A stretch of DNA of 64,000 nucleotides, from assembly GCF_029223525.1 (NCBI RefSeq), contig NZ_JARHTQ010000006.1, positions 248,001 to 312,000 of the forward strand, read 5' to 3'. How positions within the stretch are numbered: the first letter of the stretch is position 1; every line of letters starts with the position of its first letter. This DNA is from Streptantibioticus ferralitis. GTDB taxonomy: Bacteria; Actinomycetota; Actinomycetes; Streptomycetales; Streptomycetaceae. The notes under the pieces were generated by a model. The model did no database searches. It was given only the letters and a program-made list of their open reading frames with translations, and had not been told where the DNA came from. The translations under genes were made by a program, and so were the position numbers. Positions 15,295-64,000 of this stretch are shown one piece after another.

Positions 15295-16683
15295 TCAGCG
15301 GTTGGTCCAACTGACCGCGTACGGGCCCAGGTTGACGGCCTTGCCGTCGATGTGGGCGGTGATCTGCTGGTCGGTGGTGTTCACGGCGAGGAGCGTCCGG
15401 TCGCTCGCGAGTACCCGCACCTTCGTGTTGTCGACCGTCACCGACCGGAAGGCCGTGCCCGGCGGAAAGGCGGCGGCGAAGCGCCGTAGCAGGTTCATCA
15501 TGGGCAGCGGTGTGCCGCCTTGTTGGTCGGCCCCGGTGCCGGTCCACAGGCAGCCCGAGCAGTCGCCGCTCTCGGACTCCGGATTCCAGTAGAAGGCGGT
15601 GTCCGTGCCGCCCTCGGCGAGCTGCGTCATGGCGGTGGCCTGGACCGCCATGAGCCGGTTCTCCGGCCAGACGGTGTGGTCCGGCTTGACGTACCACTCG
15701 GCCCACCACAGGGGCAGTCCGGTGTCCTGGCGCAGCCAGCGGCTCAGGTCGTTGAACTTCTCGGTGGCGGTGAAGTCATCGGGGACCAGGGCGCCGTCGT
15801 GGGTGGTACTCGATCCGTCGACGACCAGGAAGTCGGCGCCCGCCTTGTTGCGCTTCCAGTAGTCGAGGGCATCGACGACCCGCTGGTCGAGGCTGCCCCA
15901 GGGGCCGCTGACGGAGGAGGAGTTGTCCTTGGAGCCGGGTGGCATGCTGTCCATGTTCAGGTAAGGACCGCCCACCATGTTCCGCGGGTTGACGCCCTTG
16001 ACCGCCCGGTAGGCGAGGTTGTACAGGCGGGTGTAGTCCTCGTAGTCCCAGCGCTGCGCACTGTCGTTCCAGAAGCCCTTGAACTCGTTCCACACGATGA
16101 AGTCGTGGACGTCCGGGTAGCGTTGGGCGACCTTGGCGGCCAGTTGGGCGAAGTCGGCGTAGTGGTCCGGGGTGGGCGCGGCCTCGATGCGCGACCAGTC
16201 GGTGGCGCCCCGGGCGCCGCCCTTCATCCAGTCGGGCGCACAGCACAGGGTGATCACGGGTGTGCCGCCGGTCTTGCGGATCAGGGCGATACGGCTGTCC
16301 AGGCCGTTGAAGTCGTACTGGCCGGGCGAGGGCTCGGGGTTGTCGGCGCCCCAGCCCATGATGGCCTGGTTCTGCGGCAGCGGCTGGGCGGCCAGCAGTC
16401 TGCCCGCACTGTCCTCGGCCGCCGCGGTACCGCGGTCGGCGCTGTACTCGGTGTGGGTGAAGCCCCAGCCGAGCCGGGCACTGGGCGACTGGCCGGAGCC
16501 GGGGGTTCCGTAGACGCCGGGCGCCGCGGTGCCGGTGGACCGTTCGGCGACACCGTGCCCTGTGGTGTCGAACATGGTCAGCAGGAGGCCAAGCCCCACC
16601 GTCGCGACGGCGATCAGCACGACGACGCGTTGCCGACCGGCGCGTAAGAGGCCGAATCTCCCGGCCGCATGACGAGCGCTCAC
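15295..16683 (-). CDS. GH39-like secreted or anchored glycoside hydrolase
   Basis: 462 aa with an N-terminal hydrophobic helix (about 19-40, VVVLIAVATVGLGLLLTMF) after a basic stretch, giving a signal anchor. The barrel carries clan-A catalytic acids: IVWNEFKGFW (acid/base Glu after Asn) and LWWAEWYVKP (nucleophile Glu). CSGC and CC pairs suggest extracellular disulfides. It lies tail to tail with the flippase/polymerase gene, so it probably trims or releases the same glycan. GH39 assignment is tentative; other clan-A families remain possible. Confidence 0.78.
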   Translation of the reverse strand: MSARHAAGRFGLLRAGRQRVVVLIAVATVGLGLLLTMFDTTGHGVAERSTGTAAPGVYGTPGSGQSPSARLGWGFTHTEYSADRGTAAAEDSAGRLLAAQPLPQNQAIMGWGADNPEPSPGQYDFNGLDSRIALIRKTGGTPVITLCCAPDWMKGGARGATDWSRIEAAPTPDHYADFAQLAAKVAQRYPDVHDFIVWNEFKGFWNDSAQRWDYEDYTRLYNLAYRAVKGVNPRNMVGGPYLNMDSMPPGSKDNSSSVSGPWGSLDQRVVDALDYWKRNKAGADFLVVDGSSTTHDGALVPDDFTATEKFNDLSRWLRQDTGLPLWWAEWYVKPDHTVWPENRLMAVQATAMTQLAEGGTDTAFYWNPESESGDCSGCLWTGTGADQQGGTPLPMMNLLRRFAAAFPPGTAFRSVTVDNTKVRVLASDRTLLAVNTTDQQITAHIDGKAVNLGPYAVSWTNR

Positions 16684-16728
16684 CTTGGCACTGTAAGGCG
16701 GAGAAGCACGCGTAACGACCGTTTTGGT

Positions 16729-17929: not shown

Positions 17930-17965
17930 GGCCGAGGCTGTCGCCGGCCGTAGCATTATGGGTGC

Positions 17966-52327: not shown

Positions 52328-52451
52328 CAGGCCTCGGCGGACGGCACCGCACCGCTGGTTCCGCATCTCCCCGCGCCGCATCCAGGCTTGGCGCGAGGTG
52401 AACGAGATGCCCGACCGCGAGCTGATCCGCGACGGCCGCTGGTCGGCCTGA
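52328..52451 (+). pseudogene. Remnant: C-terminus of a pyridoxamine-oxidase-like flavoprotein
   Basis: About 40 codons ending at TGA 52449-52451 read HRWFRISPRRIQAWREVNEMPDRELIRDGRWSA, the usual C-terminus of pyridoxamine 5'-phosphate oxidase-family proteins. Nothing upstream continues the fold. It is a short 3' remnant. Confidence 0.55.
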
Positions 52452-52653
52452 CGCCTCGGCCGGTCGCGCCGAGTGGCCGGGTGCCGGAGGCTCCAGCCGC
52501 CCAGACCGACACCGTCGAGCAGGGAGACAGCGACCGTTGTCGCGACCGCGCCGACGAACGACAACCAGCCGTTACGCTCGAAGCCGGTCAGATCGAGCCA
52601 GGCGACGCCGACAGAGACCGCGAAAGCCGCCCCGCCCAACAGATTGGAGACAC
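52452..52653 (-). pseudogene. Remnant of a membrane protein
   Basis: Antisense to the UvrA-like leader, one frame reads SNLLGGAAFAVSVGVAWLDL and WLSFVGAVATTVAVSLLDGVGLGGW with normal codon use and two possible spans. No start, RBS or full domain is present. It may be a piece of a lost transporter or just a lucky antisense frame. Confidence 0.35.
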
Positions 52654-52654
52654 G

Positions 52655-55060
<2,406 letters not shown>

Positions 55061-56510: not shown

Positions 56511-57404
56511 TCACTGGCGCCGCGGGGTGAGGGCCGCGAAGGTCGGGAGGCGAAGGGCCTGGGCAAGCGCGTGGCGCCAGTCGCCGAGGGGGTCGAGCCC
56601 GGCGGCACCCCATCGGTCGTGGCCGAGCACGCTGTAGGCGGGGCGCCGAGCAGTACGGGGAAAGGCTGAGGAGTTCGTCGGCCTGATGCGGTCCGGGTCA
56701 AAGCCGCTCAGTCTGTAAACCGCCCGAGCCAGGCCGAGCCAGGTGGTGCTTCCGCTCGCGGTGCCGTGGTAGACGCCGGCCGGGGCACGCCCGGCGAGGG
56801 CGGCCTGTCCGAGCTCCGCCAGTTTCTGAGCCAGGGCGTACGACCAAGTGGGTTGGCCGTGCTGGTCGTCGACCACATCCAGGGTGTCGCGACGGGCAGC
56901 GAGCTTGAGCATGGTGGCAACGAAGTTCGGCCCGTGCTCGCCGTACAGCCAGGCGGTGCGGATGGTGTAGCCGTTCTTGGGGAGCAGTTCGGCGACGGCC
57001 CGCTCGCCGATCAGCTTGGAACGCCCGTACGCGTTGACCGGGCCGGTGGGCGCGGACTCGGCGTACGGCTCGGTGGCGTCTCCGGGGAGTACGTAGTCGG
57101 TGGAGACGTGCAGCAGACGGGAGCCAACCCCCGCACAGGCGGCGGCGAGGTGGCGGACGCCGGTGCCGTTGACGGCGGTGGCTGCTTCCTCGGCCGCCTC
57201 GGCGCCGTCCACGTCGGTCCAGGCCGCGCAGTTGACGACCACGTCGTGACCACGGACCGACTTGAGGACGGCGTCCGGGTCGACGATGTCGAGATCGGCC
57301 CGGGTGAGTGCCGTGACCTTCTCGCCACAGTGGGCCAGGACCGAGCACAGGTCCTGGCCGAGCATCCCGCCCGCGCCCGTTACCAGCCAGCGTGTGTCGC
57401 TCAT
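56511..57404 (-). CDS. rmlD: dTDP-4-dehydrorhamnose reductase-like (RmlD) enzyme
   Basis: 297 aa from ATG 57404. SDR-fold reductase: VTGAGGMLGQDL (NADPH loop), VVNCAAWTDVDGAE, HVSTDYVLPG and the YGRSK catalytic Tyr-Lys pair; GQPTWSYALAQKL is the RmlD substrate loop. In antibiotic clusters such enzymes make dTDP-L-rhamnose or reduce the 4-keto group of other deoxysugars. The -10-like CAGGGT sits just 7 bp from the ATG, implying a leaderless mRNA from the SARP-box promoter. Confidence 0.9.
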   Translation of the reverse strand: MSDTRWLVTGAGGMLGQDLCSVLAHCGEKVTALTRADLDIVDPDAVLKSVRGHDVVVNCAAWTDVDGAEAAEEAATAVNGTGVRHLAAACAGVGSRLLHVSTDYVLPGDATEPYAESAPTGPVNAYGRSKLIGERAVAELLPKNGYTIRTAWLYGEHGPNFVATMLKLAARRDTLDVVDDQHGQPTWSYALAQKLAELGQAALAGRAPAGVYHGTASGSTTWLGLARAVYRLSGFDPDRIRPTNSSAFPRTARRPAYSVLGHDRWGAAGLDPLGDWRHALAQALRLPTFAALTPRRQ

Positions 57405-57424
57405 GGGCCAACCCTGCGGTGCCC

Positions 57425-57442
57425 GGCTTGAGCCCAGCTCGA
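57425..57442 (-). promoter_or_regulatory. SARP-type box, TCGAGCT-GGGC-TCAAGCC, facing rmlD
   Basis: On the minus strand TCGAG (57442-57438) and TCAAG (57431-57427) are 11 bp apart, as in heptamer repeats bound by SARP regulators. An imperfect -10, CAGGGT, follows exactly 8 bp after the second heptamer (57416-57411), the geometry known for SARP promoters. Confidence 0.7.
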
Positions 57443-57474
57443 CCCCCGCCGGACGCGGGGCCGGGAACGCAGAT

Positions 57475-57492
57475 TCGAGCGGGATTCAAGTA
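57475..57492 (+). promoter_or_regulatory. SARP-type box, TCGAGCG-GGAT-TCAAGTA, facing flavin reductase
   Basis: TCGAG at 57475 and TCAAG at 57486 repeat with 11-bp period in the divergent spacer. The -10 at the ideal distance (57501-57506) is poor (GACGCC), so the exact start is unclear. Confidence 0.65.
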
Positions 57493-57559
57493 ATGCGTGA
57501 GACGCCGTTGAAACGGTATCGGCGAAGGCTTTTTCTGTGGGGAGGTGAACCAGAATTCG

Positions 57560-58069
57560 ATGACGATCACCAAGCCCGTCGGGGGCGAATCGGCAACCCT
57601 GCGCGACTGTCTGGCGCGCTGGCCCAGTGGCGTCGCCGTAGTGACCACCGTGGACCAGGACGGAGCCAGACGGGGATTCACTGCGACGGCCTTCTCGTCC
57701 CTTTCGGCGAGACCGCCCCTGGTGCTGGTCTGCCTCGACCGGAGCGCTGACTGCCACCCCGCCTTCGACGGCGCCGAGGCGATGGCAGTTCACTTGCTCC
57801 GGGACGACCAGGCACAGCTGGCGACGCGATTCGCTACCAAGGCCGCGGACAAGTACGAGGACTTGTCGTCCACTCCTGGGCTGAGCCGCGTGCCGCTCTT
57901 GGACGACGTACTCGCGCGCCTCGAATGCGAGTTGGTCAACCGGTTCGACGGCGGCGACCACGTGATCCTGGTGGGACTGGTCCGACGCTCCGAAGTGTTC
58001 CCCGGCGAGCCGCTGGTCTACTGCGGTCGCCTCTTTCGCTCCCTGCCTCCCGAAGAAAGTTCAGTGTGA
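57560..58069 (+). CDS. Flavin reductase, partner of an FMN monooxygenase
   Basis: 169 aa from ATG 57560; a full GGAGGTGA lies upstream but 14 bp away, and GTG 57545 is the alternative start. Pattern [51 protein letters not shown] and [31 protein letters not shown] fits the ActVB/HpaC-type NAD(P)H:FMN reductases that supply reduced flavin to two-component oxygenases in aromatic polyketide pathways. The monooxygenase itself should lie outside the window. Confidence 0.9.
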
Positions 58070-58098
58070 GCTACGGGATTTCAATCCGAGGAGCAGCG

Positions 58099-58116
58099 TC
58101 GAGTTGTCCTCAAGCG
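58099..58116 (+). promoter_or_regulatory. SARP-type box, TCGAGTT-GTCC-TCAAGCG, facing KS-alpha
   Basis: TCGAG at 58099 and TCAAG at 58110 are 11 bp apart. Exactly 8 bp after the second heptamer comes GAGCAT (58125-58130), a weak -10 of the TAnnnT type. KS-alpha starts 45 bp after the box. Confidence 0.72.
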
Positions 58117-58160
58117 GCAGCCGGGAGCATTCCTCCCAGCTTCGAGGAAGGAATTGTCAT

Positions 58161-59426
58161 ATGTCCAGTCGCATCGTGATCACTGGAATCGGGGTGCGCG
58201 CACCGGGGGCATCCGGAACCAAAGAGTTCTGGGACCTGCTGAGTTCGGGCCGCACCGCGACCCGCCGTATCAGTTTCTTCGATCCCTCGCCCTACCGCTC
58301 TCAGGTGGCCGGGGAATGCGACTTCGATCCCGAGTCCGAAGGGCTGAGTGCGAGGGAGATCCGGCGCATGGACCGGGCCACGCAGTTCGCCGTCGCGTGC
58401 GCCGACGACGCGATCGTGGACAGCGGTCTGGAGGTGAACCGCCTCGACCCGCATCGGGTCGGCGTGAGCCTGGGAAGTGCGGTGGCCGCCTCCACCAGCC
58501 TGGATGTCGAGTACCAGATCCTGTCCGACGCGGGGCGGCGCTGGACGGTGAGCCCTGAATACCTGTCACCGCACATGTTCGACTACCTCACGCCAGGTGT
58601 GATGCCCGCCGAGTTGGCCTGGCGGATCGGAGCCGAAGGCCCCGTGACGATGGTCTCCAACGGCTGCACCTCCGGGCTCGACGCGGTCGGCAACGCCGTG
58701 CAGGTGATCCGCGATGGTGCGGCCGACATCATGCTGGCCGGAGCAACCGACACCCCGATCACCCCGATCGTCGTCGCCTGCTTCGACGCAATCAAGGCCA
58801 CCACCACGTACAACAACGACCCTGAGCACGCGTCGCGTCCCTTCGACGCGTCCCGCAACGGGTTCGTACTGGCCGAGGGCTCGGCCATGTTCGTGCTGGA
58901 GACGCTTGAGCACGCCACCAACCGGGGCGCGCACATCTACGCCGAGGTGAGCGGCTATGCCACCCGTAGCAACGCGTACCACATGACCGGCCTGAAGAAG
59001 GACGGCCGCGAGATGGCCGAGGCGATAGGCGCCGCACTGGCCGAGGCGAGGAAGAACCCGGAGGATCTCGACTACATCAACGCCCACGGCTCGGGCACCA
59101 AGCAGAACGACTGGCACGAGACGGCCGCCCTGAAGCGCAGCCTCGGACTCCACGCCTACGAAACGCCGGTCAGCTCGATCAAGTCGATGGTCGGTCACTC
59201 GCTGGGCGCCATCGGCTCCGTTGAAATCGCCGCCAGCCTGCTGGCGATCGAGAACAACGTCGTACCCCCGACTGCCAACCTGCACGAGGCCGACCCCGAG
59301 TGCGACCTCGACTACGTACCGGTCACGGCCCGTGAACGCCGGGTGGACACCGTGCTGAGTGTGGGCAGCGGCTTCGGTGGATTCCAAAGCGCAATCGTGC
59401 TGAACCGGCCAGGAGGAACACGATGA
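58161..59426 (+). CDS. Type II PKS ketosynthase, KS-alpha
   Basis: 421 aa from ATG 58161 with GAAGGA upstream. Catalytic residues of the condensing enzyme: Cys169 in [10 protein letters not shown], His309 in NAHGSGTK, Lys341 and His346 in SIKSMVGHS. It elongates malonyl units on the ACP together with KS-beta. N-terminal sequence [26 protein letters not shown] is typical of aromatic polyketide synthases. Translation is coupled to KS-beta by ATGA. Confidence 0.97.
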
Positions 59427-60628
59427 CAACCGCTGTGGTGACAGGGCTCGGTGTGGTGGCCCCCAACGGGCTGGGCACCGAGGATTTCTGGAAAGCCACC
59501 TTGGACGGGCGCGACGGAATCGGACAGATCACCCGGTTTGACCCCGCTCCGTATGCCGCCAAGCGAGCCGGAGAGGTGCTGGACTTCGACTCCAGTGAGC
59601 ACATCTCCGTGCGGTTGCTTCCGCAGACCGACATCTCCACCCGGTTTGCCCTGGCCGCCGCCGACTGGGCGCTCGTGGACGCCGAGGTGAAGCCGTCGGC
59701 GCACATCGACTACGACATGTCAGTGGTGACCTCAAACGCCTTCGGCGGCTTCGAGTTCACCCACCGGGAGCTCAGGAAACTGTGGTCCAAGGGGCCGGAG
59801 CACGTGAGTGTCTACGAGTCGTTCGCCTGGTTCTACGCGGTCAACACCGGGCAGATCTCCATCCGGCATGGAATGCGCGGGCCCAGCAAGGCGCTTGTAG
59901 CCGAACAGGCGGGCGGCCTGGACGCGATCGGCCACGCCCGGCGCACCATCCGTCAAGGCGTCGGTCTGGTCGTCACCGGCGGCGTGGACTCCGCCCTCGA
60001 CCCGTGGGGTTGGGCCGCCCAGCTTTCCGGCGGCCGGGTAAGTGCGACCGCCTACCAGCCGTTCGATGTGAACGCCAGCGGCTACATCCCAGGCGAGGGC
60101 GGCGCGATCCTCGTCGTCGAGGAGTTGGCGGCGGCTCGCCGCCGCGGAACCGGACAGGTTTACGGCGCGATCACCGGGTATGCCTCCACCTTCGACCCGG
60201 CCCCTGGTTCCTCGCGCCCGCCGGCGCTGCGCCGGGCCATCGAACTGGCGCTGGCAGATGCCGGATTGACCCCCACGCAGGTGGACGTGGTCTTCGCCGA
60301 CGCGGCCGGTGACAGCGCGCTCGACCTGCAGGAGGCCGAGGCGCTCTCGGCCGTCTTCGGACCGTCCGGCGTCCCGGTGACCGCGCCCAAGGCGCTCACG
60401 GGCCGCCTCTACTCCGGCGGCGGGCCACTGGACGTGGTCGCCGCTCTGCTGTCCATCCGAGACAGCGTGATCCCCGCCACAGCCAACGTCGACGAGGTCC
60501 CCGCCGACTACCGGATCGACCTGGTCCGCGGTGAGCCGCGCTACCAGACCGTGTCGCACGCCCTCGTGCTGGCCCGGGGCAAGTGGGGATTCAACGCGGC
60601 GATCGTCATCAGCGCCCTGGGCGACTGA
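59423..60628 (+). CDS. Type II PKS chain-length factor, KS-beta
   Basis: 401 aa. It keeps the thiolase fold of KS-alpha but replaces the active Cys by Gln162 ([13 protein letters not shown]), the hallmark of chain-length factors that decarboxylate malonyl-ACP and set length. It overlaps KS-alpha by 4 bp (ATGA) as an obligate heterodimer partner. The gatekeeper residues cannot be assigned to a chain length by eye. Confidence 0.96.
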
Positions 60629-60669: not shown

Positions 60670-60930
60670 ATGCGCAAGGCAATCACGACCGACGACCTCC
60701 GCCACATCCTCGCCAGGTGCGTGGGAATCGAGGAGGACGGTGAGCTGGAGGGGGAGATCCTCGACCAGACCTTCGAGGCCCTCGGCTACGACTCGCTGGC
60801 CCTGATGGAGACGGCCGCCGTGCTCCAGCGGGAGTTCGGCGTCGTGATCCCAGATGACGAGCTCTTCAACACCGACACTCCGCGGGCACTGCTCGACCGG
60901 GCCAACCGCGCTGTTGCCAACGCGGGTTGA
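60670..60930 (+). CDS. Acyl carrier protein
   Basis: 86 aa from ATG 60670. Ser42 in LGYDSLALMETA is the phosphopantetheine site; the preceding Asp and following Leu are right for an ACP of type II PKS. It starts 41 bp after the KS-beta stop with GAGGAAT upstream. Convergent with the SARP gene, 94 bp away. Confidence 0.95.
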   Translation: MRKAITTDDLRHILARCVGIEEDGELEGEILDQTFEALGYDSLALMETAAVLQREFGVVIPDDELFNTDTPRALLDRANRAVANAG

Positions 60931-61024: not shown

Positions 61025-61930
61025 TCACCATCCCCCGGAGGTGTGCGGGGCGCTCAGCAGGAAGTCGAGGCTGCCTGATGAGAGGTCGGCGGCGTTCTCC
61101 AGCAGCTCCTGGTGCAGTTTCTGCAGACGGCGCGAGGGCTCGACGCCCAACTCCCGGATCAGACTGGCGCGGAGGTCCCGGAAGACGGTCAGTGCCCTCC
61201 AAACCGCGCCCGAGCGCTGCAGGGCGATCATGAGCATGGCGCAGAAGTTCTCGTGGATCGGGTTCTGGGCGACCAGCATCTGCAGTTCGGGAATGAGAAT
61301 GGAGTGCTTGCCGAGGAGTAGGTCAGCGACGATGCGTCGTTCGTGCACCCGCATCCGGCTCTCCTCCAGGCCGATGGACTCCATGTGGAGTATCCGTCCG
61401 ATCGGTACGTCCACCAGCGCCGGACCGCGCCACAGGGCCAACGCCCGGGTGAGCAGGAGCGAGGCTGTGGCGGCATCGCCCGCCGCCAGCGCGGCGTCAC
61501 CCTCGGTCGACAGTCGCTCGAACTCACGCAGATCCGTGGAGCTCGGATCTGCCATCAGCTGGTACCCGTTGAAGTGGGTGACGATTAAGTCCTTGGCGTC
61601 CCAGCCGGAAGCCGCGTGCAGGGACAATGTGATCAGCCGTCGCAGCTGCAGGATGTAGGTCTGCAGCGTGCAGGCGCTGCTGCGCGGGATATCGTTTCCC
61701 CAGACCTCGTCGACCAAGGTCGATACCGGGATGACCCGGCCGCAGCGAAGAGCGAGCAGAGCGAGAAGCTGCCTCGGCTTTCTCGCAGTGGGTACGATGG
61801 ACTTTCCATTGACACTCACCGTCATCGGCCCGAGCAGACCGATTTCCAACTCTTCGATGCACCGCGGTCTGGTGGATGTGAGTGCCACAGATTTTGCGAG
61901 TGCTACATAGTTCTGGCTAATTGTTCTCAT
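61025..61930 (-). CDS. SARP-family pathway activator with a TTA codon
   Basis: 301 aa from ATG 61930. Winged OmpR-type DNA-binding region (about 27-120: RKPRQLLALLALRCGRVIPVSTLVDEVWG) followed by a bacterial transcriptional activator domain (DLREFERLSTEGDAALAAG...WRGPALVDVP). It fits the small SARPs, such as ActII-ORF4 and RedD, which switch on one cluster. Leu115 is TTA (61588-61586 on the minus strand), so the bldA tRNA may limit its synthesis. Three likely target boxes are listed above. The first ~25 residues precede the conserved part; a later TTG start is possible. Confidence 0.93.
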   Translation of the reverse strand: MRTISQNYVALAKSVALTSTRPRCIEELEIGLLGPMTVSVNGKSIVPTARKPRQLLALLALRCGRVIPVSTLVDEVWGNDIPRSSACTLQTYILQLRRLITLSLHAASGWDAKDLIVTHFNGYQLMADPSSTDLREFERLSTEGDAALAAGDAATASLLLTRALALWRGPALVDVPIGRILHMESIGLEESRMRVHERRIVADLLLGKHSILIPELQMLVAQNPIHENFCAMLMIALQRSGAVWRALTVFRDLRASLIRELGVEPSRRLQKLHQELLENAADLSSGSLDFLLSAPHTSGGW

Positions 61931-62135
61931 TCCCCGTTAACTTTCCAGATCGTGCGCGCATTGCTGTCTGTAGGGCGTACGTATCTGTCCGTTGTTTTTG
62001 ATCATATGCACGCGCAGACGGCATGTCCACCGCCGAAGATCCGGGCACGCTCGATCGTGGATATACCGCTGTTCCAGCGCCCTCGCGGAGGCTGTGCCGG
62101 ACCGCACAGACACGGATGAGGGGAGCCACCCGGTC
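61931..62135. other. Divergent SARP/glycosyltransferase promoter region
   Basis: 205 bp, AT-richer than its flanks, with CGTACGTA and GATATACC words. It has no TCGAG-N6-TCAAG box, so the SARP probably controls itself or the glycosyltransferase by another route, or the glycosyltransferase is read through from elsewhere. Confidence 0.4.
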
Positions 62136-63281
62136 ATGGCATGTACTCTGAGGACGCTCTTCGTAGCTGCGGGAAGCCCGGCCACAGTCTTCGCTCTCGC
62201 CCCACTCGCGACGGCGGCGCGCAACGCCGGCCATGAGGTCTTCGTGGCGGCCACCGAGGACATGATGCCGGTCGTCGTCGGGGCGGGACTGCCCGGGGTG
62301 GCCGCCGCCCCCGGGCGGATGCGCGACTACATGTTCGCAACCCGCGACGGTGTCCCGCTCGACCTGCCCACGGACACCACGACGCGGCTGTACTTCGGCG
62401 GCCGCGGCTTCGGGCGGCTGGCGGCCGACAGTCTGACGTCCCTGCGCGCGCTGAGCCGGAGCTGGCGTCCGGATGTCGTCGTCGGCGGCACGCTTTCCTT
62501 CGCCGCCGGTCTGCTCGCCGCCGAGTTGGGAGTGCCATACGTACGGCACGCATGGGACATGGGCGAGCCGGTCGAGATGGACCGCGGGGCGGAAGCGGAA
62601 CTCTCGCCGGAGCTGGCCTGGCTCGGCTTGGACCGGCTCCCCGAGCCGGAGCTATGGATCCACATCTGCCCGCCGCGCATGCTCGCCCCGGACGCGGCGC
62701 CCGGTGCGATGATGCGCTTCGTGCCCACCGGCCAACAGCGGCAGTTGGAGCCGTGGATGTACACCGCTGCCGTCAAGCCGCGAATCTGCGTCACGGCAGG
62801 CAGCCGGGTCAGCCCCGAGCAGGATCTCGACTTCCTGGAAGGGCTGGTGGGCGAGGTCGGGGAGCTCGACGTGGAACTGGTCATCGCCGCACCGGACGAG
62901 GTCGCAGCGGCTCTGGCCGCGTCACGGCCCCAGGTGCGAGCTGGCTGGCTGCCCCTGGGCACCGTGCTGCGCACCTGCGACGTGCTGGTGCACTCGGGTG
63001 GCGGCCAGACCGCGCTCTCCGCGATGCAGGCGGGCGTCCCGCAGCTGGTGGTGCCGAACATGCCCAAGCTGGTGTCGCATTCGCGTCGGCTCTCCGAGTT
63101 CGGCGCGGCCATCACGCTGCTTCCCGGGCAGGACACCCCCGAAGCCATCGCCGCCGCCTGCAGTCAGCTGCTGTCGACGCCGTCCTACACCGAGCGGTCT
63201 CAGGAGTTGGCCGCCGACATCGCCGCGCTTCCCAAGCCGACCGAAGTCCTCGCCTTGGTGGAGCAGTTGACGGCGGCCTGA
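62136..63281 (+). CDS. GT1-family glycosyltransferase for the polyketide
   Basis: 381 aa from ATG 62136 (GAGGGGAG upstream). The GT-B fold is shown by the N-terminal TLFVAAGSPATVFALAPLATAARNAGHEVFVAA and the NDP-sugar motif VLVHSGGGQTALSAMQAGVPQLVVP near residue 285. Such enzymes add deoxysugars to aromatic aglycones; O- versus C-linkage cannot be judged. It is followed by a convergent NDP-hexose reductase. Confidence 0.93.
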   Translation: MACTLRTLFVAAGSPATVFALAPLATAARNAGHEVFVAATEDMMPVVVGAGLPGVAAAPGRMRDYMFATRDGVPLDLPTDTTTRLYFGGRGFGRLAADSLTSLRALSRSWRPDVVVGGTLSFAAGLLAAELGVPYVRHAWDMGEPVEMDRGAEAELSPELAWLGLDRLPEPELWIHICPPRMLAPDAAPGAMMRFVPTGQQRQLEPWMYTAAVKPRICVTAGSRVSPEQDLDFLEGLVGEVGELDVELVIAAPDEVAAALAASRPQVRAGWLPLGTVLRTCDVLVHSGGGQTALSAMQAGVPQLVVPNMPKLVSHSRRLSEFGAAITLLPGQDTPEAIAAACSQLLSTPSYTERSQELAADIAALPKPTEVLALVEQLTAA

Positions 63282-63287
63282 GCCCCT

Positions 63288-64000
63288 TCAGCCGTCCAGG
63301 CCGGCCGCCCGACGGATGTCGGCCAACAGGTCGGCCTGGGCCAGACACTCAGCCGATGAGGGAGTCCCGGTTCGCACCGCCGAGACGAAGGCGGACAGCG
63401 CGTTGGCGACCTGGTCGTCCGGCGGCAGCGGGCACGACCGGGTGCCCGCTCGGGACTCGATGAGGATCTGCGGTACATGGTCCGCAGGCGGGGTGAAGGC
63501 GCGGTCGACGAGAATGCGGCCGGTGCTGCCGGACAGCTCGTAACGGGAACGGTAGGCATGCTCCATACCGAAGGTCAGGTGTGCCGTGACACCGCCGGGG
63601 CCCCGCAGCAGCACGGCCCCGGCGGTGTCTACCCGGCGGCCGGATGGGCGTTCGAGGACCGCTCCCCTGACCTCCAGCTCCCCCTGCAGGAAGTGCACGG
63701 CCGCGCGCACCGGGTACACCCCGACGTCGTAGAGGCTTCCGCCGCCGAGTTCGGGCTGGTGGCGGATGTCGTCGTCGGGCAGTGCTGGGATGGTGAAGGT
63801 CGCGTCCAGGGAAAGGAGTTCGCCGATCTCGCCCTGCGCCACCAGTCGGCGGACCACCGCATGCTGGGCATGGTGGACGAACATGACATTCTCCATGAGC
63901 ACTAGTTCGCGGGCGCGGGCCTGGCCGATGAGCTCGCGGGTGCGGGCCGGTTCCGTGGTGAGCGGTTTCTCGGCGAGCACGTGTTTGCCGGCCGCCAGCG
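63288..64000 (-). CDS. Gfo/Idh/MocA-type NDP-hexose 3-ketoreductase, 5' end outside
   Basis: At least 237 residues of the C-terminal part; the start lies right of the window. The catalytic-Lys segment LAEKPLT, ENVMFVHHAQHAVV and GGGSLYDVGVYPV are typical of dTDP-hexose 3-ketoreductases of deoxysugar pathways, which act after a 2,3-dehydratase. It ends 6 bp from the glycosyltransferase stop. Together with the RmlD-like gene it indicates a 2,6-dideoxy- or 6-deoxysugar. Confidence 0.85.
   Translation of the reverse strand, partial: LAAGKHVLAEKPLTTEPARTRELIGQARARELVLMENVMFVHHAQHAVVRRLVAQGEIGELLSLDATFTIPALPDDDIRHQPELGGGSLYDVGVYPVRAAVHFLQGELEVRGAVLERPSGRRVDTAGAVLLRGPGGVTAHLTFGMEHAYRSRYELSGSTGRILVDRAFTPPADHVPQILIESRAGTRSCPLPPDDQVANALSAFVSAVRTGTPSSAECLAQADLLADIRRAAGLDG

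Follow-up and report, generated by a model that had tools for sequence, protein, structure and literature searches.

The polyketide cluster and its two SARP genes

The window, meaning the whole stretch of 64,000 nt that was analysed, carries near its end the first part of a glycosylated type II PKS cluster. An rmlD-like dTDP-sugar reductase gene lies on the minus strand (56511..57404; Pfam PF04321), followed on the plus strand by a flavin reductase gene (57545..58069; Pfam PF01613), which may instead begin with the ATG at 57560, and by KS-alpha (58161..59426; Pfam ketoacyl-synt N and C), which opens the minimal PKS set; all three are predicted targets of the regulation discussed below. KS-beta (chain length factor; 59423..60628, plus strand; Pfam ketoacyl-synt), which overlaps KS-alpha by 4 nt, and the ACP gene (60670..60930, plus strand; Pfam PP-binding) are presumed to belong to the KS-alpha operon. 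Beyond position 64000 the cluster reaches about 90.2 kb in window numbering (L004-L006), an end judged by gene content and synteny. Its PKS genes are completed by a malonyl transferase, a ketoreductase and an aromatase/cyclase, and its sugar genes comprise three EryCIII-type glycosyltransferases, rmlA, rmlB, an rmlC-type epimerase and a 2,3-dehydratase; of these, the malonyl transferase, the aromatase/cyclase, rmlA and rmlB were named by reading the translations and not from Pfam. Other genes include those for an acyl-CoA-dehydrogenase-fold protein, a metallo-beta-lactamase-fold protein and two FkbM methyltransferases. Two similar serine beta-lactamase-family proteins are also encoded in the cluster (64435-65604 and 75793-77109, window numbering). 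For the product of the cluster, an NCBIfam search gave no telling match.

Two SARP genes are found in the cluster. SARP1 (61025..61930, minus strand; 301 aa), a candidate regulator with an OmpR-type DNA-binding domain and a BTAD (PF00486, PF03704), lies inside the window, and SARP2 (327 aa; PF00486, PF03704) is encoded on the plus strand 3.0 kb beyond the window end (L004:13008-13991, that is 67007-67990 in window numbering). Both have the architecture of small SARPs, with PF00486 then PF03704 above the gathering score and no other Pfam family; their sequences show 66% identity over 265 residues. A search of genome contigs with the SARP1 sequence led to one locus. The stretch TLQTYILQLR of the recognition helix is common to SARP1, SARP2 and the SARP1 of the related cluster described below. 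The best relative of SARP1 with a solved structure is AfsR, for which Q48, W74, P79, T88, R94 and K95 are described as highly conserved DNA contacts and R92 as a base-specific one (PMC10936776). In the alignment, the counterparts of W74, P79, T88 and R94 are kept in both SARPs, and that of K95 is Lys in SARP2 and Arg in SARP1; Q48 is replaced by Lys and the base-contacting Arg92 by Gln in both, so the AfsR contact scheme carries over in part only. These two replacements may accompany the different repeat sequence found here.

A syntenic cluster is present in another genus, in Streptomyces sp. NRRL S-1022 (L007, G484), where 29 of the 32 query proteins were matched within 60 kb, the exceptions being orf55175, an acyltransferase and a P450. 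The acyltransferase and P450 genes (79359-81852, window numbering; L005) are possibly a late addition to the pathway here, or were lost in S-1022. A literature search for SARPs in NRRL S-1022 led to one paper, which by its title deals with another cluster.

Three repeats and the hexamers that follow them

An earlier note on this DNA had described three copies of TCGAG-N6-TCAAG, facing rmlD (minus), the flavin reductase gene (plus) and KS-alpha (plus), and this placement is borne out by exact matches and by the Pfam assignments of the neighbouring genes. The window contains exactly three exact matches, at 57427-57442 (minus), 57475-57490 (plus) and 58099-58114 (plus), all within 690 bp. Their rarity, put at about 0.1 chance copies per 64 kb in that note, holds up against 100 dinucleotide shuffles of the window, which contained 0.05 copies on average and in no case (0/100) reached three. 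Throughout the 8.80-Mb genome assembly (110 contigs), the only matches are these same three, compared with five for the control pattern read backwards; the strict word is thus not enriched genome-wide, and it is the clustering alone that is unusual.

The predicted SARP operator facing rmlD reads TCGAGCT-GGGC-TCAAGCC (57425..57442, minus strand; exact match), and the -10-like hexamer CAGGGT (57411..57416, minus strand) follows 8 bp after its second heptamer. At the KS-alpha operon, the predicted operator TCGAGTT-GTCC-TCAAGCG (58099..58116, plus strand; exact match) is followed at the same distance by GAGCAT (58125..58130, plus strand), and the two sites agree in this respect with what had been noted before. 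GAGCAT is identical in S-1022, where the orthologous place of the KS-alpha operator reads TCGAGCTGTTCTCAAGCG. At rmlD, S-1022 has three heptamers in register (TCGAACC-CCGC-TCGAACC-CCGC-TCCAGCC), and these changed heptamers indicate that the site has been rebuilt, its letters not being kept. CAGGGT ends 6 nt before the rmlD ATG (57402-57416, minus strand) and the spacing is the same in S-1022 (GAGTGT, 6 nt, ATG), from which a leaderless rmlD mRNA is predicted.

The predicted operator of the flavin reductase gene, TCGAGCG-GGAT-TCAAGTA (57475..57492, plus strand; exact match), has a 16-base core identical in S-1022. The hexamer found 8 bp after its second heptamer is GACGCC, with C in the -7 column in both genomes. 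A possible third, degenerate heptamer, GTGAGAC (57497..57503, plus strand), lies in register at 11 bp, and the -10-like hexamer AACGGT (57512..57517, plus strand) stands 8 bp after it; the heptamer pair 57475/57497 reaches a score of 12.8 at 22-bp spacing with the weight matrix described below. In S-1022 the third heptamer reads GTGAGAT, and GCCGTTGAAACGGT at the AACGGT hexamer is identical, so that from the third heptamer to AACGGT one heptamer base differs and the rest is the same. Because GACGCC is a misfit and GTGAGAC has AACGGT 8 bp on, we infer a three-heptamer operator at the flavin reductase gene.

Extent of the predicted regulon and its candidate regulators

Relaxed to TCRAG-N6-TCRAG, the pattern occurs 31 times in the genome, versus 29 times for its backwards control. 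Six of these 31 sites lie inside one 26.9-kb stretch of the cluster (binomial P ~6e-10) and 25 elsewhere. Besides the three strict copies, the cluster sites belong to a GFO/IDH-type oxidoreductase gene (start 64303, minus strand), to SARP2 (start 66945, plus strand) and to a small gene beside rmlA (start 84277, minus strand; 18-bp coordinates throughout). The view that TCAAG is a consistent second half is right for the three strict sites and fails beyond them: two of the three further sites are TCAAG/TCAAG and one is TCGAG/TCGAG, and TCAAG/TCGAG is found in other clusters. A fixed order of TCGAG then TCAAG was accordingly rejected as a signature of the regulon, the third bases being G/G in 29, A/G in 7, A/A in 6 and G/A in 4 of the 46 nonredundant sites from the collection of loci described in the next section.

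Five of the six relaxed cluster sites match the relaxed pattern exactly at the orthologous places in S-1022, and two are identical over all 16 bases. A count over nine site pairs shows identity in 90/90 positions of the TCRAG columns and in 18/18 of the -11 and -7 columns, compared with 165/270 in the 30 nt upstream, 53/72 in the 8-bp spacer and 198/252 downstream; these counts are biased upwards, since pairs were taken where both genomes score, and they omit three sites, those of rmlD and GT2 (70700) because of their poor alignment and that of the acyltransferase (79372) because its gene is absent in the relative.

A scan with a weight matrix built from 21 nonredundant sites of other clusters yielded 12 hits with a score of at least 12 in 56000-91000 (35 kb). 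The syntenic cluster likewise has 12 such hits in 34 kb, and window positions 1-54000 have none, even at a score of at least 10. In 200 shuffles of the cluster, hits of at least 12 numbered 2.0 on average and 7 at most, and at a score of at least 14, nine hits were observed versus a shuffle mean of 0.5 and a maximum of 2. The cluster read backwards gives four matches of at least 12, so the weakest cluster hits may be due to chance. Assigned by position, the hits other than the relaxed sites lie at a gene of the serine beta-lactamase family (64366), the malonyl transferase gene and its divergent neighbour (73920 and 73874), the glycosyltransferase GT2 (70700), the aromatase/cyclase (78077) and, as the least sure assignment, the acyltransferase (79372), a gene without a match in the relative's 60 kb. 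At 11-bp spacing, no hit of at least 10 was found for the KR gene, both FkbM methyltransferase genes, the rmlC gene and the 2,3-dehydratase gene. A weaker predicted operator, TCGATCG-N15-TCCAGCG (62051..62079, plus strand), precedes the glycosyltransferase gene at 62136 and scores 15.0 at 22-bp spacing, a value without a shuffle control; it is partly conserved in S-1022, and the hexamer GAGGCT (62088-62093, plus strand) stands 8 bp after it. Upstream of another glycosyltransferase gene, three TCRAG words with a 22-bp period occur at 70656, 70678 and 70700 (70656-70706; L004 about 16657-16707, plus strand), a set partly changed in the S-1022 relative.

Just upstream of the cluster are found an AlkZ-like DNA glycosylase gene (PF06224; 49985-51094, plus strand) and a gene for a large ABC ATPase (52388-55060, plus strand) with PF00005 and a zinc-finger-like stretch below cutoff, which we take to be UvrA-like. 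Such DNA glycosylases are described as self-resistance proteins in producers of DNA-damaging antibiotics (PMC9040887, PMC8934636). No match to either gene was found in the 60 kb surrounding the S-1022 cluster, and the matrix scan of positions 1-54000 was empty, so the two genes may be no part of the cluster.

From the way the sites are spaced, concentrated in the cluster and conserved, and from the presence of two SARP genes, we read the three repeats, with a probability of roughly 0.9, as operators of the cluster-situated small SARPs, forming part of a predicted regulon of about a dozen promoters. The idea of a SARP regulon is thereby supported, and the original proposal of three promoters would have to be widened. 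SARP1 and SARP2 would probably read the same operator, as they have TLQTYILQLR in common. The SARP at 61025 had been proposed as the regulator; it is indeed a SARP gene of the cluster, but not the sole candidate, since SARP2 exists with a predicted operator in its own promoter. That operator makes a relay from SARP1 to SARP2, or autoactivation of SARP2, likely.

It may also be that the sites are real SARP operators with SARP2 as the effective regulator, SARP1 feeding into SARP2 or acting elsewhere. This is a serious alternative that we nevertheless consider doubtful on balance. SARP2 has the same TLQTYILQLR stretch, its own promoter carries a TCAAG-N6-TCAAG that is the same letter for letter in the S-1022 relative, and it is better conserved between the clusters (89%) than SARP1 (78%), whose promoter gives no matrix hit of at least 10 at 11-bp spacing. 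However, the recognition helices are near-identical, so that both proteins are predicted to bind, and SARP1 is kept in both clusters. An improbable variant is that the sites are read by AfsR or another SARP encoded in the genome, the cluster SARPs having other targets. The genome may hold many SARP-like genes, as a loose search with SARP1 gave 46 candidates, two of which pass E 1e-60. Nevertheless, the sites concentrate beside the two SARP genes in two genera, and the AfsR box, given as CGTT(T/C)ATCGNN (PMC10972967), differs from the TCGAG/TCAAG of the three sites, which are not afs boxes by that definition. Operators read by the SARPs of the cluster itself are therefore preferred in what follows.

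Promoter geometry across clusters

The sites were compared over 68 loci, a non-random sample made up of this cluster, the S-1022 cluster, seven SARP neighbourhoods and, hand-picked among the matches listed, 59 stretches that surround relatives of KS-alpha; gene boundaries in these loci come from a rough GC3-based caller. The 68 TCRAG-N6-TCRAG sites found were reduced to 46 nonredundant ones by dropping 22 near-duplicates (70% identity over 48 nt). In 26/46 sites the second heptamer is followed at a distance of exactly 8 bp by a hexamer xANNNT, which is lacking there in 20/46, whereas each of 24 other offsets has it 0-5 times and the noncoding background is 1.5%. When this cluster and that of S-1022 are left out, the count is 21/40. 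Within the cluster here, the hexamer is found at this distance in five of the six relaxed sites, with the flavin reductase site fitting only via its third heptamer.

The contrast between SARP-bearing and SARP-less loci is weaker than hoped. Loci with a SARP of at least 45% identity have 34 relaxed sites in 23 loci (510 kb; backwards control 2), those with a more distant SARP 17 in 15 loci (297 kb; control 1), and those with no SARP detected in the fetched stretch 17 in 30 loci (600 kb; control 5). The 8-bp hexamer is present in 17/24, 3/8 and 6/14 nonredundant sites of these classes, respectively, the last class being impure, as the contigs of three of its loci (L036, L045, L046) have a SARP 18-25 kb away (L025, L026, L027) and its stretches may fall short of further SARPs. 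Three type II PKS loci (L029, L031 and L032; sites at 17938 minus, 2322 plus and 18107 minus) have TCGAG-N6-TCGAG, GACAGT or GAGAGT 8 bp further along and similar sequence beyond, with no SARP detected in the fetched 20 kb, outside which one may lie.

The reading of the repeats as chance matches in a GC-rich genome could appeal to the backwards controls, which are about equal genome-wide (5 vs 3 for the strict word, 29 vs 31 for the relaxed one). It is scarcely credible, however, given three strict sites in 690 bp, six relaxed sites in one cluster, TCRAG columns identical in 90/90 cases and the fixed 8-bp spacing to xANNNT, and we reject a chance origin on the grounds of clustering, conservation and spacing. 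SARP operators remain the preferred reading of the repeats.

The first base of the 26 hexamers is C in 14, G in 11 and T in one; with C or G in 25/26, these hexamers lack the T that begins TANNNT. We claim no depletion of T at -12, because T in 1/26 compares with 4.1% of background noncoding xANNNT hexamers, which points to an absence of selection for T instead. In S. coelicolor, TANNNT is reported at 80.4% of 3,570 start sites (PMC4895711). Within the HrdB regulon, too, high conservation is reported for A-11 and T-7 in particular (PMC6344877), which weakens the contrast with ordinary promoters. In the open-licence literature we found no survey that counts the -12 base in a large set of SARP promoters, and one may exist elsewhere.

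The arrangement can be pictured as follows. Each of the two heptamers, which are one helical turn apart, would take up one SARP protomer, the two protomers lying next to each other, and region 4 of sigma-HrdB would dock on the SARP dimer in place of a -35 box. The polymerase would then open the DNA at a weak -10 hexamer, always 8 bp further downstream, in which A-11 and T-7 are kept and T-12 is lacking. Beyond this, we tentatively suggest, at somewhat under even odds, that SARP promoters of aromatic polyketide clusters follow a code that goes beyond the heptamers: a -10 element with A-11 and T-7 only, which would require sigma region 4 to dock on the SARP dimer and would be silent without the SARP, combined with a two-stage amplifier in which two SARPs with the same recognition helix would use one operator set and one of them would stand under that operator. 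The missing T-12 would allow a direct test of how far a SARP replaces promoter recognition by sigma. The pooled sites yield a prediction rule, TCRAG-N6-TCRAG-N10-SANNNT, for SARP promoters and start sites in other clusters. For the aromatic polyketide cluster common to the two genera, the result would be a testable regulon, with expression of SARP1 or SARP2 as a handle to switch it on.

Comparison with known SARP systems

The clusters for oxytetracycline and chlortetracycline encode type II PKSs, and TCGAG is a core of sites of the ActII-ORF4, DnrI and FdmR1 type. The locus described here has the traits of SARP promoters, namely direct repeats of about 7 bp at 11 or 22 bp, a SARP gene in the cluster, sites that are concentrated and conserved and, as read from the sequence, a 3' repeat 8 bp upstream of a -10-like hexamer. 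The closest parallel is offered by OtcR and CtcB of the tetracycline clusters, small cluster-situated SARPs acting at several promoters through 11-bp direct repeats, of which the 3' copy is separated from the -10 by 8 bp, as described with tests of OtcR activation in E. coli; a repeat of the oxyI promoter contains TCGAAG (PMC4393881). The oxy repeat differs in being described as 9 nt long (CGGTCGAAG at oxyI; PMC4393881), whereas TCRAG dominates here, at predicted sites and beside two SARPs.

The AfsR complex is described with two protomers on two repeats and sigma region 4 on them instead of on a -35, and its target afsS, a promoter active in vitro, has the -10 CACTGT, which the authors term suboptimal (PMC10936776). 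The afsS promoter has two 11-bp direct repeats and a poor -35 (PMC10936776), and the sites here resemble it in these features and in the weak -10 without T-12. They differ in repeat sequence, and AfsR is a large protein with NOD and TPR domains whose Arg92 is Gln here. With ActII-ORF4, DnrI and FdmR1, likened here by description and not letter by letter, the sites have heptameric direct repeats in common, three-heptamer sites being reported for each (PMC10972967), and with FdmR1 also the 8 bp from the -10 (PMC7040171). PimR-type SARP-LALs likewise use heptamers with 4-bp spacers and need two heptamers for binding, but PimR is a large regulator whose heptamer is CGGCAAG and whose main operator does not overlap the -35 (PMC5930380). 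A general rule for SARP operators is already given in these sources (PMC10936776, PMC10972967, PMC5930380, PMC7040171). Since both this rule and the analysis of OtcR in tetracycline clusters have been published, the kind of on-switch predicted for the present cluster is one already known.
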